Shown in pieces: positions 49,240 to 63,818 of a DNA stretch of 64,000 bases; position 1 is the stretch's first letter; every line of letters begins with the position of its first letter. Origin of the DNA: Myxococcota bacterium. GTDB lineage: Bacteria; Myxococcota_A; UBA9160; SMWR01. A program made the position numbers and the translations under genes. The stretch is taken from assembly GCA_039030075.1 (NCBI GenBank), contig JBCCEW010000005.1, positions 1 through 64,000 of the forward strand, written 5' to 3'. The notes under the pieces were generated by a model. The model was not told the origin of the DNA. It saw only the letters and a list, made by a program, of their open reading frames with translations, and made no database searches.

Positions 49240-50343
49240 CTGCGATCGGTAGAAGAAGCGCGGCCGCGGCCGGGACTCAGCGTTCCCGTGATCACCGCGC
49301 TCGACGAAGACGGCGGTCTTCGCGAAGAGGACCAGCGCGCGCTCGTGCGCTTCGTGGTGCAGGACGGCTACGGCGCCGACATCGTGTTCGCGGCTGGGAC
49401 CACCGGCGAGTGGGACCGCGTGACGAACGACGTCCGCCAGCGGGTGATCCAGGTCTGCTCGGAAGAAGTGGCGAAGTGCAACGCAGGCCTCGGACGCGGC
49501 GATCGTCAGATCGAGGCCTGGGCCGGCGTGACCGCGCACACCGCGGAAGAGACGCTCGCCAACCTGGACTTCGCGATCGCCCACGGCGCCGATGCCGCCG
49601 TCCTGGCGCCGCTCTCGATCGACGGGGTCGAGGATCCGGTGCACTTCGTGGCGCGCGATGTCGCCGACCTGCTCGACGCGCGCTCGCGTCGTATCCCCAT
49701 CTATCTCTACGACAACGCGGACATCGCCGTCGATCCGAAGGTGCCCCACATCCGCACGCGCCAGGTGAAGGCGATGAGCCGCCACGACTTCGTGCGCGGC
49801 ATCAAGGTGTCGGCGCCGAAGAAGGTGTTGGGGAACTACACGAAGGCGGCCGCCGGTTTTCGCGAGCGCGGCGAGTTCGGCATCTACGTGGGCAACGCCA
49901 TGCTGATCTTCGATCTCTTCGGCCCCTACCCCGGGTTCTGGGGCACGGTGCGCGAGCACTGGAACCGGCGCCGGCTGCGCGGCGGGCTCCCGATCGGCGT
50001 GGTCGCCGGGCCGGGCAACGCATTGCCGCGCGAGTGGGCGCGCGCCTGGCAGGTGTGCCGCGCCGGCGATGCGGAACGCATGGCGGCGGCACGCGGCGTC
50101 GCCCAGGCCTTCGCTGCTTGCTGTCGGGTGCCGTCGGGAAAGCGGACGATCGCGTGCCTCAAGCGCGCCCTCTTCTCGCTCGGTGTGATCGCGAGCGACG
50201 CAGTCGCGCCCGGCACGGCGGCGCTCACCAACGCCGACACCGAGGTGTTCGACGCGGCCTTCCTGGCCCTGCGCGAGCGCGCGCGCGACGAGCTCGGCGA
50301 ACTCTGGGTGTCCCGCTGGCACACCGAGGGAGCCCTGTCTTGA
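49240..50343 (+). CDS. Class I aldolase of the DHDPS/NAL family
   Basis: A roughly 367-residue (beta/alpha)8 aldolase. The GTTGEWDR motif, a conserved YLYDNADIAV segment with the catalytic tyrosine, and the Schiff-base lysine in RGIKVSAPKK match the family. The Arg that binds the dipicolinate carboxylate in DapA is not evident, which favours a 2-keto-3-deoxy-sugar-acid aldolase over DapA. The start is uncertain: CTG at 49240 has GGAGGA six bases upstream and TATGCT 32 bases upstream, while TTG at 49207 is an alternative. It overlaps the kinase-isomerase gene by four bases (TTGA), so the two act together. Confidence 0.72.
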   Translation: MRSVEEARPRPGLSVPVITALDEDGGLREEDQRALVRFVVQDGYGADIVFAAGTTGEWDRVTNDVRQRVIQVCSEEVAKCNAGLGRGDRQIEAWAGVTAHTAEETLANLDFAIAHGADAAVLAPLSIDGVEDPVHFVARDVADLLDARSRRIPIYLYDNADIAVDPKVPHIRTRQVKAMSRHDFVRGIKVSAPKKVLGNYTKAAAGFRERGEFGIYVGNAMLIFDLFGPYPGFWGTVREHWNRRRLRGGLPIGVVAGPGNALPREWARAWQVCRAGDAERMAAARGVAQAFAACCRVPSGKRTIACLKRALFSLGVIASDAVAPGTAALTNADTEVFDAAFLALRERARDELGELWVSRWHTEGALS

Positions 50344-51956
50344 GCGACGCAGACACCGCGAAGCCGCTCGACGTCGTGGGCATCGGCAGCATGGTCGTCG
50401 ACCGGATGCACCGCACGCCGCGTCTGCTGGGCGCCGACGAGAAGGGCATGCTCGAAGACCTCGGGTCGGGCCCGGTGCAGCCGATGATCGGCGGCGTCGT
50501 CCTGAACCATCTCGGCTGGGCGGCGAGTCTGGGGCTGCGCACCGGGATCTTCGGCCGCGGCGCCAATGACGCAAACGGCCGGTTCCTGCGCGGCGCCATG
50601 GACCGGCTGGGGATTCGCCATGCGATCGATCGCTCGGGGAGCGCCAGCTCGGTCTGTGAGATCTTCGTCGACGCCGCCGGCGAACGCACGATCTATATGG
50701 CGCCGGCGGCGACGTCGGAGACGTCGGCGTCCCATATCCGAGAGTTCGTGGACTTCATCGCCGACGCCCGCTTCGTCTCGACCGAGATCTCCCAGCTGCC
50801 GCTCGACGCGGTGGCGGAGGTGCTCGCTCTGGCGAAGGCGTCGGGAGCGACGCGCGTGCTCGATCTCGACGTACCGCCGAGCGCCGCGGTGGCGTCGGGA
50901 TTGGGCGACGAAGCCCAGCTGCTCACGATCCTCGCCGAGACCGAGATCCTGAAGCCGTCGAAGGGCGCCTGCCGCGAGCTCGTCCCGGGCAGCGACGACC
51001 CGCTCGAACTCGCCCGCGCGCTGCGCGCACGCTTCGGCAACGACGCCGTCGTCGTGACCGACGGCGAGGCGGGCTGTGCCGTCGCGGCCGAGGGCTACGA
51101 GGGGTTCGTCCCCGGCACGCCGTTGAAGGCCTCGGATACCACCGGCGCCGGCGACGCCTTTCTCGGTGGTCTGCTCGCCGGGCGCGCCAACGGGATGGGC
51201 TGGGAAGAGACGGCGCGGCTGGCAAATGCCTGTGGCGCCGCCTGTGTGGAGCAGCTCGGTGCGTTCCCCGAAGATCCGGAAGCCGCCTACGCGAAGGTGC
51301 GTACGCTGGTGCCCGACCTCGCCGCGATCCTCGGCGGACCGGCCCGCGCCGAAGACGACGCAGCGACCCGCGCGGCCGTCGCGAGCTTCGGGGTGGCGCT
51401 CGAAGAGCTCGAGGCGCTCGGAAAGCGGCTCGACGCGGATGCGTACGAGCATGCCCTCGCCCTGCTCGGGGAAGCGCGCGAGTCCGGGGCCCGGCTCCAC
51501 ATCACCGGCGTCGGCAAGCCCGAGCACCTGGCGCGCTACGCCGCATCGCTCTTCGCCTCGACCGGGACGCCGGCGACCTTCCTCCACGCCACCGAGACCA
51601 TCCACGGCAGCGCCGGGCAGATCGTGGCCGGCGACGTCGTGATCGCGATCAGCAACAGCGGCACCACCCAGGAGTTGCTCGCCGCCGTGGCGGCGCTGAA
51701 GCCCCTGGGCGCGCGGATCATCGCGGTGACCGGGGGCCTCGACTCGCCGCTGGCCCGAGAAGCGGAAGTGGTGCTCGATGCGGGCGTCGCGCGCGAGGGC
51801 GGCCCCCTCGGCTTCGCGCCCCGGGCCAGCCTGGCCGCCGAGCTACTGGTGCTCGCCAGCCTGGCGGCGGGCGCCGAGCAGGCGGTGGGCTGGACCGCGG
51901 CCGACTACCAGGCGCGCCACCCGGCCGGGGCCCTCGGGCGCCTCTCGAAAGGGTGA
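50340..51956 (+). CDS. Fused PfkB sugar kinase and KdsD-like SIS isomerase
   Basis: A 538-residue two-domain enzyme. Residues 1-330 are a PfkB/ribokinase-type kinase: VGIGSMVVDRM at the start, the GGVVLNHLGWAASLG segment and DTTGAGDAF (266-274) with catalytic Asp272. Residues 380-538 are a SIS domain closest to arabinose-5-phosphate isomerase KdsD: GVGKPEHLARYAASLFASTGTP, the IHGSAG His, VIAISNSGTTQE, the REGGPLGFAP Glu and a HPAGALGR ending. No CBS domains are present. The TTG start overlaps the aldolase stop. A kinase-isomerase fusion with an aldolase implies a sugar or sugar-acid pathway, exact substrate unknown. Confidence 0.82.
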   Translation: MSDADTAKPLDVVGIGSMVVDRMHRTPRLLGADEKGMLEDLGSGPVQPMIGGVVLNHLGWAASLGLRTGIFGRGANDANGRFLRGAMDRLGIRHAIDRSGSASSVCEIFVDAAGERTIYMAPAATSETSASHIREFVDFIADARFVSTEISQLPLDAVAEVLALAKASGATRVLDLDVPPSAAVASGLGDEAQLLTILAETEILKPSKGACRELVPGSDDPLELARALRARFGNDAVVVTDGEAGCAVAAEGYEGFVPGTPLKASDTTGAGDAFLGGLLAGRANGMGWEETARLANACGAACVEQLGAFPEDPEAAYAKVRTLVPDLAAILGGPARAEDDAATRAAVASFGVALEELEALGKRLDADAYEHALALLGEARESGARLHITGVGKPEHLARYAASLFASTGTPATFLHATETIHGSAGQIVAGDVVIAISNSGTTQELLAAVAALKPLGARIIAVTGGLDSPLAREAEVVLDAGVAREGGPLGFAPRASLAAELLVLASLAAGAEQAVGWTAADYQARHPAGALGRLSKG

Positions 51957-53869: not shown

Positions 53870-53945
53870 GGGGCCGTAGCTCAATTGGGAGAGCGCTGCG
53901 TTCGCAACGCAGAGGTTGGCGGTTCGATCCCGCTCGGCTCCACCA
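53870..53945 (+). tRNA. tRNA-Ala (CGC anticodon)
   Basis: A complete 76-base cloverleaf with encoded CCA. The acceptor stem pairs GGGGCCG with CGGCTCC and contains the G3-U70 pair that identifies alanine tRNAs. The D-arm GCTCAATTGGGAGAGC, anticodon stem CTGCG/CGCAG with loop TTCGCAA (anticodon CGC) and T-arm GGCGG-TTCGATC-CCGCT are all present. The sense of the gene is plus. Two degenerate copies of its 3' end lie downstream, which marks it as a probable integration target. Confidence 0.97.
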
Positions 53946-53985
53946 CCGCCTGCGTTTCTGAGGTCGCGTCGAAGTGGCGCCTGCC

Positions 53986-54068
53986 GTTGGCGGTTGCTCA
54001 TCCGGGCTTCGCCGGGCTGGTGTCTCGTGCCGCTGCCCGGCCCGCGTGCGATCCCGCTCGGCGCCACC
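53986..54068 (+). repeat. Degenerate, split copy of the tRNA-Ala 3' end
   Basis: GTTGGCGGTT at 53986-53995 equals tRNA bases 53915-53924, and CGATCCCGCTCGGCGCCACC at 54049-54068 equals the adjacent 53925-53944 at 19 of 20 positions. In the copy the two halves are separated by 53 bases. This is best read as a duplicated tRNA 3' end split by an insertion at the T-loop. Confidence 0.7.
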
Positions 54069-54109: not shown

Positions 54110-54850
54110 CTAGCTCGTGACGACGGCGGGGTCGCCGAGGTGCCGAGTCACCATCGACCAAAAGCCGTAGCGCCCCGCGCCGAGACGCACGAGGTCTTCT
54201 TTCGCGTAGCGCGCGGCTTCCGGCGAAATCGGCTTGGCCTGGCGCGCCTTCATGTGGGCTTCGGCCACGCGCTCCATCACGACGAAGCTTCCGACCGACT
54301 GGTCGACGCTCTCGCCCACGGTGAGCAGACCGTGGTTGCGTAGGATCACGGCGCGGTGGGAGCCCAGCGCCACCGCGATCCGCTTGCCGCCCTCGACACT
54401 CTGCACCTGCACTTCTTCGTCGTCGAAGATCGCGTGGTCTTCGTAGAACAGGCACGACTCCTGGGTGATCGGCTCGATCGGCCGCACTTCCGCCGAGAAC
54501 GGCGTGCCCCAACCCGTGTGCACGTGCGTCGCGCTCACCGCGTCGGGGCGCGCCATCAGGATCGGGTGGTGGATGAAGTACGCCGCCATGTTGATCGGTC
54601 CCTGGCCCTCCACGAGATCGCCATCCGGACCGACGAGAACGAGGTCGTCCACGCGGGCCTCGTGGTAGGAGGGTCCGAAGCGAAGCATCCAGAAGCAATC
54701 TTCGCGCTCTGGATCTCGTGCACTGATGTGACCGTCGCCCAGGTCGCCCCAGCGCTGGGAGGCCAACAAGCGATAGCCGAGGGCCACCTGCTGCTTGCGC
54801 TCGGCGCGGGTCTCGTCGTGGGAACGGGTGTCGTTGGTGTGGGAACTCAT
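54110..54850 (-). CDS. Class II aldolase/adducin family protein
   Basis: A 246-residue protein with the class II aldolase fold. The metal-binding histidines appear in ATHVHTGWG and LRNHGLLT, with GDGHISARDPE near residue 40 as the phosphate/substrate loop. Members act on fuculose-phosphate, ribulose-phosphate or related substrates, and some are not aldolases. The substrate cannot be read here. It is the last of four minus-strand genes that begin at the XRE regulator, and 64 bases separate it from the RRM gene. Confidence 0.82.
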   Translation of the reverse strand: MSSHTNDTRSHDETRAERKQQVALGYRLLASQRWGDLGDGHISARDPEREDCFWMLRFGPSYHEARVDDLVLVGPDGDLVEGQGPINMAAYFIHHPILMARPDAVSATHVHTGWGTPFSAEVRPIEPITQESCLFYEDHAIFDDEEVQVQSVEGGKRIAVALGSHRAVILRNHGLLTVGESVDQSVGSFVVMERVAEAHMKARQAKPISPEAARYAKEDLVRLGAGRYGFWSMVTRHLGDPAVVTS

Positions 54851-54914
54851 ACCGGGCCTTCAACCCTCAGTGTAGGCTGCGAGTCCCCGGTGATCTCGTC
54901 CCCAGCGAGGGTCC

Positions 54915-55190
54915 CTAGTGACCGCGCGGCGAGGGGATGGGCACCTCCGCATGCGGGTCCTTCACCTGGATGCTCTCGCCTCCGAGCACACTTCCATCCA
55001 GCGCAAAGAGGGCGTGATGGGCTTCACGGGCGCAGGCCATCTCGACGGATGCGAAGAACTTCCGGCTTCCCGCCTCCATCATCGTGAGGATCATCATCGA
55101 CTCGATTCGACCGTGAGGCTCGAACGCCGCTCGGAGGTCGGCGAGCGTCGTGGAGGCCGAGAGATTCTCGACGTAGAGCCGTCTACCCAT
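54915..55190 (-). CDS. Divergent RRM RNA-binding protein
   Basis: A 91-residue single RRM. The RNP2 motif is LYVENL and the RNP1 position reads RKFFASVEM, where most bacterial RRMs have RGFGFVEM, so aromatic contacts are partly lost. The spacing of the beta-alpha-beta pattern is kept (LADLRAAFEPHGRIESMMIL; LDGSVLGGESIQV). It lies between the TIR-like and class II aldolase genes, and may have lost or changed its RNA specificity. A standard RRM protein lies 1.3 kb away on the other strand. Confidence 0.78.
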   Translation of the reverse strand: MGRRLYVENLSASTTLADLRAAFEPHGRIESMMILTMMEAGSRKFFASVEMACAREAHHALFALDGSVLGGESIQVKDPHAEVPIPSPRGH

Positions 55191-55256
55191 CGTTCGCCGG
55201 GAAGACAGGCGAGCTGCTGGCCGCGGGTCGAAAAGCCGAGGTCCGCGGCCGCGCCG

Positions 55257-55688
55257 TCATGACGGCTCTTTCCCCGAGCCGGGTGACGCGGCCGGGCCCA
55301 GGCTACGTCGGATGAGCGAGATCTGTTCGAGAAGGATGGGCCGCGTCCAGCTGTACATCCCCTCATGGGACTTGGACCCATGTGGCTTCGTGCATTGGAT
55401 TCCTGCGCGGCCCCAGAGCATGAAATGCGGGATCTGCTCTTCGTTCGAGATCTGCAGCTCCGCACTCATGGACTTCGAGTCTTCGGTGCGCTCGCCACAG
55501 AGGAAGATCACCAGATCCGAGCCACGAATCTCACGGCGTGCTCCTTCGCTCCAGAACTCGCGCCCCGAGATTCGCTGGGAGCAGGCCGAGACTTCGAACC
55601 CCGACGACTCCGACTGCCTTCGGATCTCCGTGAGGAGGTCCGCATCGTGTTCGGTGTCGTAGCTGACGAAGATCCGCACATTGCTCAT
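55257..55688 (-). CDS. Stand-alone TIR-like protein
   Basis: A 143-residue protein resembling the MTH538/ThsB-type TIR domain (DUF1863). It opens VRIFVSYDTEHDADLL, has an REIRGSDLVIFLCGERTEDS strand-loop and a Glu77 in SMSAELQIS at the position of the catalytic Glu of TIR NADases, followed by IPHFMLWGR. In Thoeris defence the TIR partner makes a cyclic ADP-ribose signal for ThsA; no ThsA-like gene is visible here. The gene lies 73 bases after an XRE regulator and 66 before an RRM gene, all minus. Its codon use is less GC-rich than its surroundings, consistent with transfer. Confidence 0.72.
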   Translation of the reverse strand: MSNVRIFVSYDTEHDADLLTEIRRQSESSGFEVSACSQRISGREFWSEGARREIRGSDLVIFLCGERTEDSKSMSAELQISNEEQIPHFMLWGRAGIQCTKPHGSKSHEGMYSWTRPILLEQISLIRRSLGPAASPGSGKEPS

Positions 55689-55761
55689 ACGACGAACGCT
55701 TCGGACGAGAGCGGGTTGCGGCGAGGCGTCCTGCCAAAGGCTCGCAGGTCGGTTCGTCGAT

Positions 55762-56196
55762 TCAACGGGAACCTCGGGATCGCAGGAACGCGAGATACTT
55801 GAGGAGCTCTTCCTCTTCCTCGGCCGTGAGATCGTCGATCGCGAACACCGCGAGCCGTTTCCGTCGCTGCCCCTTCTTCTCGGAGGGCAGCAGGTATCCG
55901 GCCTTCTCCATCAAGGAGTCGTAGGGCACGACGTAGACCTCCGCGAGATCGCGCAACACGGTGGGAGACGGCTTTCGGATCTTCCCGTTCTCGAGCTGGC
56001 TCAGGTAGGCGTTCGAAACGGACGCGCCGGTAGCCTCTTCGACTTCCCGGAGCGTCATGCCCTTCGCAGTCCTCAGGTCGGACAGGATCGCGCCCAATTC
56101 GCTCTGGCGCGTGACGAACTCGGAGCGTTTTCGAGAGCGTTTTGCCGCTTTCGGCATCGGGTCGGACAACCAGCGAAAGAGGATCTCATGCAGCAC
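55762..56196 (-). CDS. XRE-family transcriptional regulator
   Basis: A 144-residue regulator. A basic N-terminus (KAAKRSRKRSEF) precedes an XRE helix-turn-helix (LSDLRTAKGMTLREVEEATGASVSNAYLSQLENGKIRKPS, about 45-95). The C-terminus ends LTAEEEEELLKYLAFLRSR, a helix often used for dimerisation. The start is the GTG at 56196 or the ATG at 56157. It is the first gene of a minus-strand set with the TIR, RRM and aldolase genes. A triple 9-bp repeat lies just upstream and may be its operator. Confidence 0.85.
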   Translation of the reverse strand: MLHEILFRWLSDPMPKAAKRSRKRSEFVTRQSELGAILSDLRTAKGMTLREVEEATGASVSNAYLSQLENGKIRKPSPTVLRDLAEVYVVPYDSLMEKAGYLLPSEKKGQRRKRLAVFAIDDLTAEEEEELLKYLAFLRSRGSR

Positions 56197-56508
56197 ACCA
56201 TCAGGGCTGCTTCACAGACCTAGCAAGCTTAGCATACTTAGCAGCGGGCGTGCGCCGCGGCTCCGCTGGACCTCGCCTTGCGCAGACGCCAGGGTTCCGT
56301 ATGGTCCGCGCCAGCAAGGCCGATGACGGGCCGAGTCAGCACGGGAGGCACGAGGCTTCTCCACTGGCTCTTCGCCCCGCGAGTTTCGGCGCTCGTGCCA
56401 GCACGGATGGCTGGCAAGCAACACGATCGGAACGCGGCACCGCTCGAAGGAGCCTGCCCGCCGCCCGAACCTCAACCCCAAAGTTCTCGAAGGAGAACCG
56501 GGGCAGAA
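56197..56508. other. Divergent region between XRE and RRM genes
   Basis: A 312-base gap. It starts with a triplicated 9-bp repeat near the XRE start and contains a short GCCAGC / GCTGGC dyad near 56398-56415. No coding frame is supported. AGGAG at 56491-56495 may serve the downstream RRM gene. The long upstream leader would suit cold-responsive control, but this is only inference. Confidence 0.4.
56216..56242. repeat. Triplicated 9-bp repeat upstream of the XRE gene
   Basis: AGACCTAGC, AAGCTTAGC and ATACTTAGC follow one another with no gaps; the last four bases (TAGC) are identical and the sixth from the end is always C. The stretch is more AT-rich than its surroundings and lies 20 bases upstream of the XRE start, so it is a candidate operator. 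Confidence 0.5.
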
Positions 56509-56781
56509 TTGGATGATCCATTGGGTAGAAAGATTTACGTAGGCAACCTTCCGTTCTCGGTCACCGAGGGCGAACTCAAAGACGCTTTCGGACGACACGG
56601 TGGTGTCGAGTCGGTTGCCGTGATCACCGACCGCGAGACGGGCCGTCCGCGCGGCTTCGCATTCGTCGAGATGGAAGACGAGAACGCGGCCGGCGAGGCC
56701 ATTCGCGCGCTCGACGGAACCGACTTCGGCGGCCGAAGCATCCGGGTCAACGAGGCCCAGGACCGCCGCGGTCGCGGCTAG
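56509..56781 (+). CDS. RRM RNA-binding protein, cold-inducible type
   Basis: A 90-residue single RRM with the standard motifs: RNP2 IYVGNL and RNP1 RGFAFVEM, followed by an LDGTDFGGRSIRVNEA strand and a short Arg/Gly tail (DRRGRG). The start is TTG at 56509 (AGGAG 13 bases upstream) or TTG at 56521, which would give the common MGRKIYVGNL opening. Such proteins are usually induced by cold and bind mRNA. It faces away from the XRE gene. Confidence 0.88.
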   Translation: MDDPLGRKIYVGNLPFSVTEGELKDAFGRHGGVESVAVITDRETGRPRGFAFVEMEDENAAGEAIRALDGTDFGGRSIRVNEAQDRRGRG

Positions 56782-57003: not shown

Positions 57004-57044
57004 GGTTGGCGGTTCGAACCCGCTCGGCTCCGTTGCCGCCTGCG
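57004..57044 (+). repeat. Remote copy of the tRNA-Ala 3' end
   Basis: Bases 57004-57031 match tRNA-Ala bases 53914-53941 at 27 of 28 positions: the T-arm and the acceptor 3' strand. After five changed bases the flank CGCCTGCG also matches the sequence just after the tRNA. No 5' half of a tRNA is present upstream. This is the pattern of an attachment-site remnant, 3.1 kb from the intact gene. Confidence 0.75.
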
Positions 57045-63404: not shown

Positions 63405-63818
63405 CTACGCGTCGGCGCCCTCGTCGAGCGAAACGCTCGCCTCGCCCGAGCGGATCGTCAGGAAGTCCATGCCGGCGTCACCGCAGGTGAAGCCGTAACG
63501 GGTATGGGCGTGGATCACGATGCTGTCGCCCGGGCCGAGCGTCATCTCCCCGTCGTCGAACACGCATCCGCCGGTCAGGCACACGAGCAGCTCGTCGTGG
63601 TCGTGATGGTGCGCCGGCACCCGAAAGCCCGGGCTCATCAGCGAGCGGTTCATGAAGAAGCCGCCCTCGCCGCGCACGATGCGCTTGCGTCGCGTGCCCT
63701 TCGAGCGACGCGCCTTCGCGACGAGCTCCTTCGGCGGGCGCTTGTCGGGCGGCACCGATGCGAGCGGGTCGTCCCAGTCGAGGGCATCCCAACGGAACAC
63801 GGCGGGCGGGTTCGGCAC
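63405..63818 (-). CDS. Cupin-domain protein
   Basis: A 137-residue protein with a single cupin barrel: AHHHDHDELLVCLTGGCVFDDGEMTLGPGDSIVIHAHTRYGF gives the two conserved cupin motifs with several His residues for a metal. A basic segment (KARRSKGTRRKR) precedes it. The start is GTG at 63818, two bases after the stop of the partial gene to the right, so the two form an operon. Its ligand is unknown; cupins near a dehydrogenase-like gene often act on small oxidised substrates. Confidence 0.8.
   Translation of the reverse strand: MPNPPAVFRWDALDWDDPLASVPPDKRPPKELVAKARRSKGTRRKRIVRGEGGFFMNRSLMSPGFRVPAHHHDHDELLVCLTGGCVFDDGEMTLGPGDSIVIHAHTRYGFTCGDAGMDFLTIRSGEASVSLDEGADA

Follow-up and report, generated by a model that had tools for sequence, protein, structure and literature searches.

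A ThsB-like TIR gene without a local effector and its recurrent XRE and RRM neighbours in the myxococcotal order SMWR01

The window, a stretch of 64,000 nt from contig JBCCEW010000005.1 of a Myxococcota bacterium in the order SMWR01, carries a block of four minus-strand genes encoding an XRE regulator, a small TIR protein, a divergent RRM protein and a class II aldolase/adducin-family protein (Table 1). A sequence-only reading of this DNA had named these families and noted the short spacing of the genes. Both points are confirmed, with Pfam returning the families as named and intergenic gaps of 64, 66 and 73 nt. That reading missed a fifth gene on the opposite strand, which encodes a canonical RRM protein and is followed by a strong hairpin. 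The XRE gene probably starts at an internal ATG at position 56157, as its homologues begin near there. The shared upstream repeat that had also been described did not hold up, since a repeat search found only short imperfect matches dispersed across the region. An integron-like cassette array, an idea arising from the regular gaps, was rejected because inspection revealed no sequence common to the three gaps.

Table 1. Features of the window and of compared loci; positions preceded by a locus handle belong to that locus.
Feature	Position	Strand	Basis or remark
tRNA-Ala (CGC), left boundary of variable region	53870-53945	plus	ARAGORN
Further partial copy of tRNA-end repeat, 23 nt	54046-54068		
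Class II aldolase/adducin-family protein	54110-54850	minus	Pfam Aldolase_II, E 9.6e-37
Small divergent RRM protein, encoded downstream of TIR	54915-55190	minus	Pfam RRM_1, 2.7e-12
ThsB-like TIR protein, 143 aa	55257-55688	minus	TIR_2, 4e-6; ThsB_TIR, 0.0018
XRE regulator of Cro/CI HTH type, immediately upstream of TIR	55762-56196	minus	HTH_3, 4.9e-12; HTH_31
Possible diverged operator before XRE	56225-56244		CTGCTAAGTATGCTAAGCTT as read on the minus strand
Canonical bacterial RRM protein, divergent from XRE	56509-56781	plus	NCBIfam Rbp_regulator, above cut-off
Strong 13-bp hairpin, directly 3' of canonical RRM stop codon	56794-56827	plus	
41-nt repeat of 53914-53954 (tRNA-Ala 3' end and following bases), candidate attR	57004-57044	plus	88% identity
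TIR-8xMP loci	L079:6001-6879, L080, L082, L084-L087, L089, L091, L096-L098, L100		
TIR-8xMP, viral contigs	L183:5001-5896, L184:5001-5963		
TIR, caspase and second TIR, plasmids	L185:5001-6879, L186:4986-7355, L187, L189		

The 143-aa protein scores 27.7 bits against the TIR_2 profile (cut-off 28) and 19.1 bits against ThsB_TIR (cut-off 21.2). When aligned with 29 homologues from the order, 28 of the 30 sequences matched TIR_2 and 27 matched ThsB_TIR at E<=0.1, the best ThsB_TIR value being 1.9e-7. Residues D15, L18, C64, E77, P87, W92, C99 and P102 are invariant in this alignment, with E77 at the TIR catalytic position in helix C and aligned to the Glu of 8fz9. An AlphaFold2 model (pLDDT 85, pTM 0.81) found the Bacillus cereus TIR 8fz9 as its best Foldseek match (E 4.7e-7, TM 0.64-0.70), followed by EcThsB 8wcf (E 4.8e-5), with SARM1, RRS1 and SPARTA TIR domains among the further matches. 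PADLOC and NCBIfam models gave no match to the protein, and a PDB profile match to NLRP1 was judged to be due to chance. On the strength of the profiles, the invariant E77 and the closest folds of the model, the protein is a genuine ThsB-like TIR, and putatively an NAD+-processing enzyme. The earlier identification of a TIR-like protein with Glu77 at the catalytic position is thus borne out by Pfam, alignment and Foldseek, and the structural search proposed as its check returned TIR structures as best matches.

Synteny with a same-genus genome (G029) and a same-family genome (G020) ends at the 3' end of the tRNA-Ala gene. The candidate attR lies 3.09 kb from the tRNA end. Because of the synteny break and the 41-nt repeat, the tRNA-Ala 3' end is the probable integration site of the block, which includes the aldolase gene, judged to be outside the module. 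A search of the window's contig (C5) for Phage_integrase, the tyrosine integrase family, gave no match. A second TIR locus near a tRNA, L046, lies 62 nt from a tRNA-Arg. The block had been taken to fit a defence island beside a tRNA integration site, and of this the tRNA site stands. By content the locus is not a defence island. PADLOC matched no defence gene among ten neighbours in the window, and among 111 TIR-neighbour proteins across the order, mostly metabolic, it gave few matches, mainly to generic helicase and regulator models. As the neighbours across the order are mostly metabolic and none of those in the window is a recognised defence gene, the island is unsupported beyond the tRNA site.

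Within the order, 32 near-full-length copies of the TIR gene were found in 26 of 80 genomes, with no counterpart in the sole same-genus genome. A phylum-wide search found it outside the order only in one genome of the same class, plus one weak match. In 8 of the 32 loci the gene immediately upstream of the TIR belongs to the XRE family of the window and shares the strand of the TIR (the window, L037, L041, L045, L046, L056, the first copy of L060, and L047, where the XRE is a remnant), and in 11 the immediate upstream neighbour is an RRM gene (L031-L036, L051-L053, L059 and the second copy of L060). For a distance of 1 kb around all TIR copies together, chance alone predicts 0.011 XRE and 0.032 RRM genes. 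Less common arrangements have the RRM downstream of the TIR (L044, L049) or a GIY-YIG-like gene and/or a secreted Cys-repeat protein gene preceding it (L043, L048, L058), with the XRE divergent in the last two; in the remaining 8 of 32 the TIR has no recurring partner beside it. The loci are not fully independent, since sister species contribute the near-duplicate pairs L031/L032 and L054/L055.

The survey of homologous neighbourhoods therefore upholds two of the partners originally proposed for the TIR, far above chance, though not the third. No counterpart of the aldolase exists in the other 31 TIR loci, and for this reason it was rejected as a module member. The RRM proposal survives in part, as the canonical RRM recurs, normally upstream, whereas the downstream divergent RRM of the window has no counterpart. 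The XRE and the RRM mostly stand in for one another as partners and do not make up one fixed module. Genomes with the XRE family carry the TIR in 14 of 16 cases, compared with 12 of the 64 others (Fisher p 5e-7). Partner labels are clustered on the TIR tree, requiring 10 changes against 17.8 when shuffled. On this tree the XRE became the upstream neighbour of the TIR at least twice, because a well-supported XRE-linked pair (the first copy of L060, and L037) is nested inside a well-supported clade of RRM-linked TIRs. The literature searched contained no description of an XRE- or RRM-linked TIR without a local effector.

The XRE family of the window occurs in 16 of 80 genomes, mostly at 72-85% identity to the L041 protein used as query, and the window protein is weakly similar to capH (E 1e-8). 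Members also precede a GH94-type glucan synthase gene or adjoin the secreted Cys-repeat gene where the TIR is absent, so the family is not dedicated to the TIR. In L048:1-6255, L122 and L126 the neighbouring GH94-type (cyclic glucan synthase-like) gene is giant. Most of these XRE genes are preceded by a palindrome, TGCTTGATNNATCAAGCA, whose centre is typically ~31 nt from the start and which, by eye, overlaps a promoter-like TTGATN-17-GATACT arrangement. A relaxed search of 781 kb gave 19 sites, of which 15 were upstream of an XRE gene, and shuffled sequence gave 2. At <=1 mismatch the palindrome was found in 7 of 80 genomes, each carrying this XRE, and a reversed control gave zero. Some sites away from XRE genes precede a Cys-repeat or GIY-YIG-like gene. 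The XRE is a putative binder of a palindromic operator. At <=1 mismatch the palindrome is absent from genome G000, and the window lacks the main site. Before its XRE there is a diverged, differently spaced inverted repeat, CTGCTAAGTATGCTAAGCTT, resembling an operator-like site upstream in L060, CTGCTAAGTATACTTAGCTA. It has four mismatches to an idealised palindrome that was itself written from L060 and the window, and its identity as a diverged operator is suggestive only. XRE-TIR loci have no hairpin comparable to that behind RRM genes, and the order and strand of the two genes stay constant while the flanks vary.

Two further families accompany the XRE genes. Family c10 (L048:6953-7432, L037:9283-9777, L056:6791-7390) bears the GIY-YIG-like signature GNYALGY...FYVGRSD...R...E...N..P, has no Pfam match and gave a structure prediction of pLDDT 44. 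Family c4 (for example L038:10063-10815, L045:8956-9714 and L060:5075-5845) is secreted, has several repeats of the form VPxNAHLDxSGxxWxCxRGYRKxGxxC with a weak match to EGF_MSP1_1, and lies divergent from the XRE in most XRE loci.

The canonical RRM of the window scores 105.9 bits against Rbp_regulator (NCBIfam NF058537; cut-off 100) and belongs to the same family as the RRM preceding the TIR in 11 other loci. The divergent RRM shares 41% identity with it, has one RNP1 aromatic changed and forms a very long branch in the RRM tree. None was found in other TIR loci, and the window's divergent RRM is a one-off. A strong hairpin follows nearly all RRM genes of the order that were examined, whether or not a TIR comes next; in RRM-TIR loci it stands between the two genes. 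A gene for a small Lys/Arg/Glu-rich protein (60-80 aa, MSVQKRLRERKKAEKAALKRE...) is found mostly directly behind RRM genes (L102:7238-7441, L104, L111, L112, L114, L118, L119), and the one member compared with Pfam had no match. The RRM tree is poorly resolved and the TIR-linked RRMs form no separate clade in it, as expected if the RRM is merely a neighbour. No pairing of a bacterial RRM gene with a TIR gene was met in the literature searched.

Homologues outside the order came from an alignment profile search, supplemented with plasmids and viral contigs; a single-sequence scan of genome contigs found no TIR homologues, which the profile did recover. In 15 of these outside loci, including two viral contigs, a gene for 8xMP (PF24838), an octameric membrane protein, directly follows the TIR. 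The other hosts are Patescibacteria, Ignavibacteria, Elusimicrobia, Planctomycetota, Acidobacteria and Nitrospirae, and a TIR-8xMP gene pair is thereby brought to light across several phyla and two viral contigs. No PADLOC model matched the 8xMP gene convincingly. The TIR is instead accompanied by a caspase, and mostly by a second TIR as well, in four plasmid records examined (hosts Methylorubrum, Rhizobium, Bosea and Sphingomonas) and a Lentisphaeraceae genome, and one genome of the phylum is also TIR-caspase as judged by its caspase match. In L186 a YspA/SLOG-like gene lies between caspase and second TIR. On a Polaromonas plasmid the TIR homologue is flanked by a type I restriction system on one side and by a PIN-domain gene on the other.

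Neither effector was found beside the TIRs of the order. With the window and L031-L060 translated in all six frames, an HMM search detected no 8xMP, and neither the window nor the surroundings of the order's TIRs gave a caspase match. A search for ThsA-type (STALD/SLOG) proteins gave no match in the 80 genomes, with control genomes equally silent. In a joint tree the TIRs of the order split from the effector-linked TIRs with branch support of 100/98. Judged by this midpoint-rooted tree and the side of the root on which each group falls, the ancestor of the order's TIRs most likely lost the effector from its locus and kept the TIR, though such a tree is by itself no proof that the effector-linked state came first.

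Several known systems resemble parts of this arrangement. Like the ThsB of Thoeris, the window TIR stands alone, has the ThsB fold and carries a Glu at the catalytic position. Type IV Thoeris is marked out by caspase pairing (PMC12847820), and a caspase and second TIR follow most of the nearest annotated plasmid relatives, whereas the TIRs of the order have an XRE or RRM upstream instead of a caspase or membrane effector alongside. The TIRs of the TIR-8xMP pairs belong to the same family, with 32-40% identity to the window protein and the same Cys-x-x-Pro region, and differ from the order's loci in the membrane-protein gene right after the TIR. CapW, CapH+CapP and CapK+CapS are repressors upstream of immune operons, with CapK+CapS reported upstream of type IV Thoeris (PMC13373217). 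As in CapH+CapP, CapW/BrxR and CapK+CapS, a DNA-binding, putatively repressing protein is encoded upstream of the immune-type gene in the window. Unlike CapH+CapP and CapK+CapS, the window XRE has no adjoining CapP protease or CapK kinase, a CapP-type protease gene being absent among its neighbours, and its family, unlike the Cap controllers, also adjoins other genes. Rbp_regulator proteins, whose curated cut-off the canonical RRM passes, are known as RNA-binding regulators, from which the TIR neighbour sets the present case apart.

The preferred reading, held at about even probability, is that the TIR is an effector-less, rewired immune enzyme under the control of a local XRE repressor. In the window the XRE and TIR genes would form one transcription unit, the XRE first, with the XRE repressing its own promoter, and hence the TIR, via the palindromic operator. 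Infection or another stress would lift repression and the TIR would accumulate. It might then lower NAD+ itself, or make a cyclic-ADPR-type messenger that acts on an effector whose gene lies elsewhere. In sister lineages, where the TIR follows an RRM gene and lies beyond its terminator-like hairpin, expression would be by read-through. Such a module is possibly defensive. Against this reading count the 8 of 32 TIR loci without a partner, the XRE's lack of dedication to the TIR, the diverged operator of the window, the failure of TIR-linked RRMs to form a clade of their own and surroundings free of recognised defence genes. A broader and unlikely proposal is a class of TIR immunity that has dropped its dedicated effector and uses exchangeable nucleic-acid-binding partners (XRE, or RRM with hairpin), the trigger being a partner that loses its nucleic-acid target during infection. 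Under the preferred reading an immune-type TIR, normally beside an effector, would live without a local one across an order, repeatedly rewired to regulatory partners. Such loci would serve as a natural experiment in how a potentially lethal NAD-processing enzyme is restrained once parted from its effector, and might lead to a new TIR output or mode of triggering.

Whether the partners matter functionally is disputed by a somewhat improbable account in which a mobile orphan TIR lands repeatedly behind RRM hairpins, XRE genes and tRNAs, with the neighbours lending only transcription or a safe site. The RRM loci suit it, given that the hairpins are there regardless of the TIR, that several TIR-less loci have the small Lys/Arg/Glu-rich gene in that position behind the RRM, and that TIR-linked RRMs have no clade of their own; the window block at a tRNA boundary with att-like repeats and the tRNA-Arg beside L046 suit it as well. 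The XRE-TIR loci argue the other way, having no intervening hairpin, a constant order and strand between differing flanks and an operator in common. Partner labels that follow the TIR tree and the contig's lack of a tyrosine integrase also speak against mobility of this kind. There is little probability that the TIR is instead a domesticated, non-antiviral enzyme sharing a stress or cold-shock regulon with RRM proteins and, in XRE loci, with the Cys-repeat and GIY-YIG-like proteins. PMC9333190 describes a role in cold adaptation for RRM proteins of this type in cyanobacteria, DEAD-box helicases neighbour two loci, and within the phylum the TIR is confined to the order but for the two exceptions above. 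Set against this are its patchy presence, including its absence from the only same-genus genome, and a sister clade found beside caspases or on viral contigs.

RES-Xre pairs consist of an NAD-depleting toxin with an Xre partner. A toxin-antitoxin unit of this manner, in which the XRE would neutralise or repress a growth-arresting TIR NADase, is quite improbable here. It would account for the regulator coming first and the enzyme second on the same strand with a short gap, and for an apparently autoregulatory operator, and NatR-NatT is a known case of an NAD-depleting toxin with such a partner (PMC11535050). However, the XRE family is found without the TIR, most TIR loci have no XRE, Pfam recognises no toxin-binding domain in the XRE, and an RRM replaces it elsewhere. 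No RES-domain toxin match occurs at the window locus, where the enzyme gene is the TIR. The earlier version, in which XRE, TIR, divergent RRM and aldolase form a single four-gene defence module, draws on their shared direction and short gaps; it has next to no probability, being contradicted by 31 homologous loci that contain neither aldolase nor divergent RRM, and the aldolase is of a common metabolic family.

Elsewhere in the window, 50034-51956 encodes a SIS domain fused to a PfkB-family carbohydrate kinase, and 63405-63818 a cupin protein with a weak match (6e-5) to DMSP lyase.
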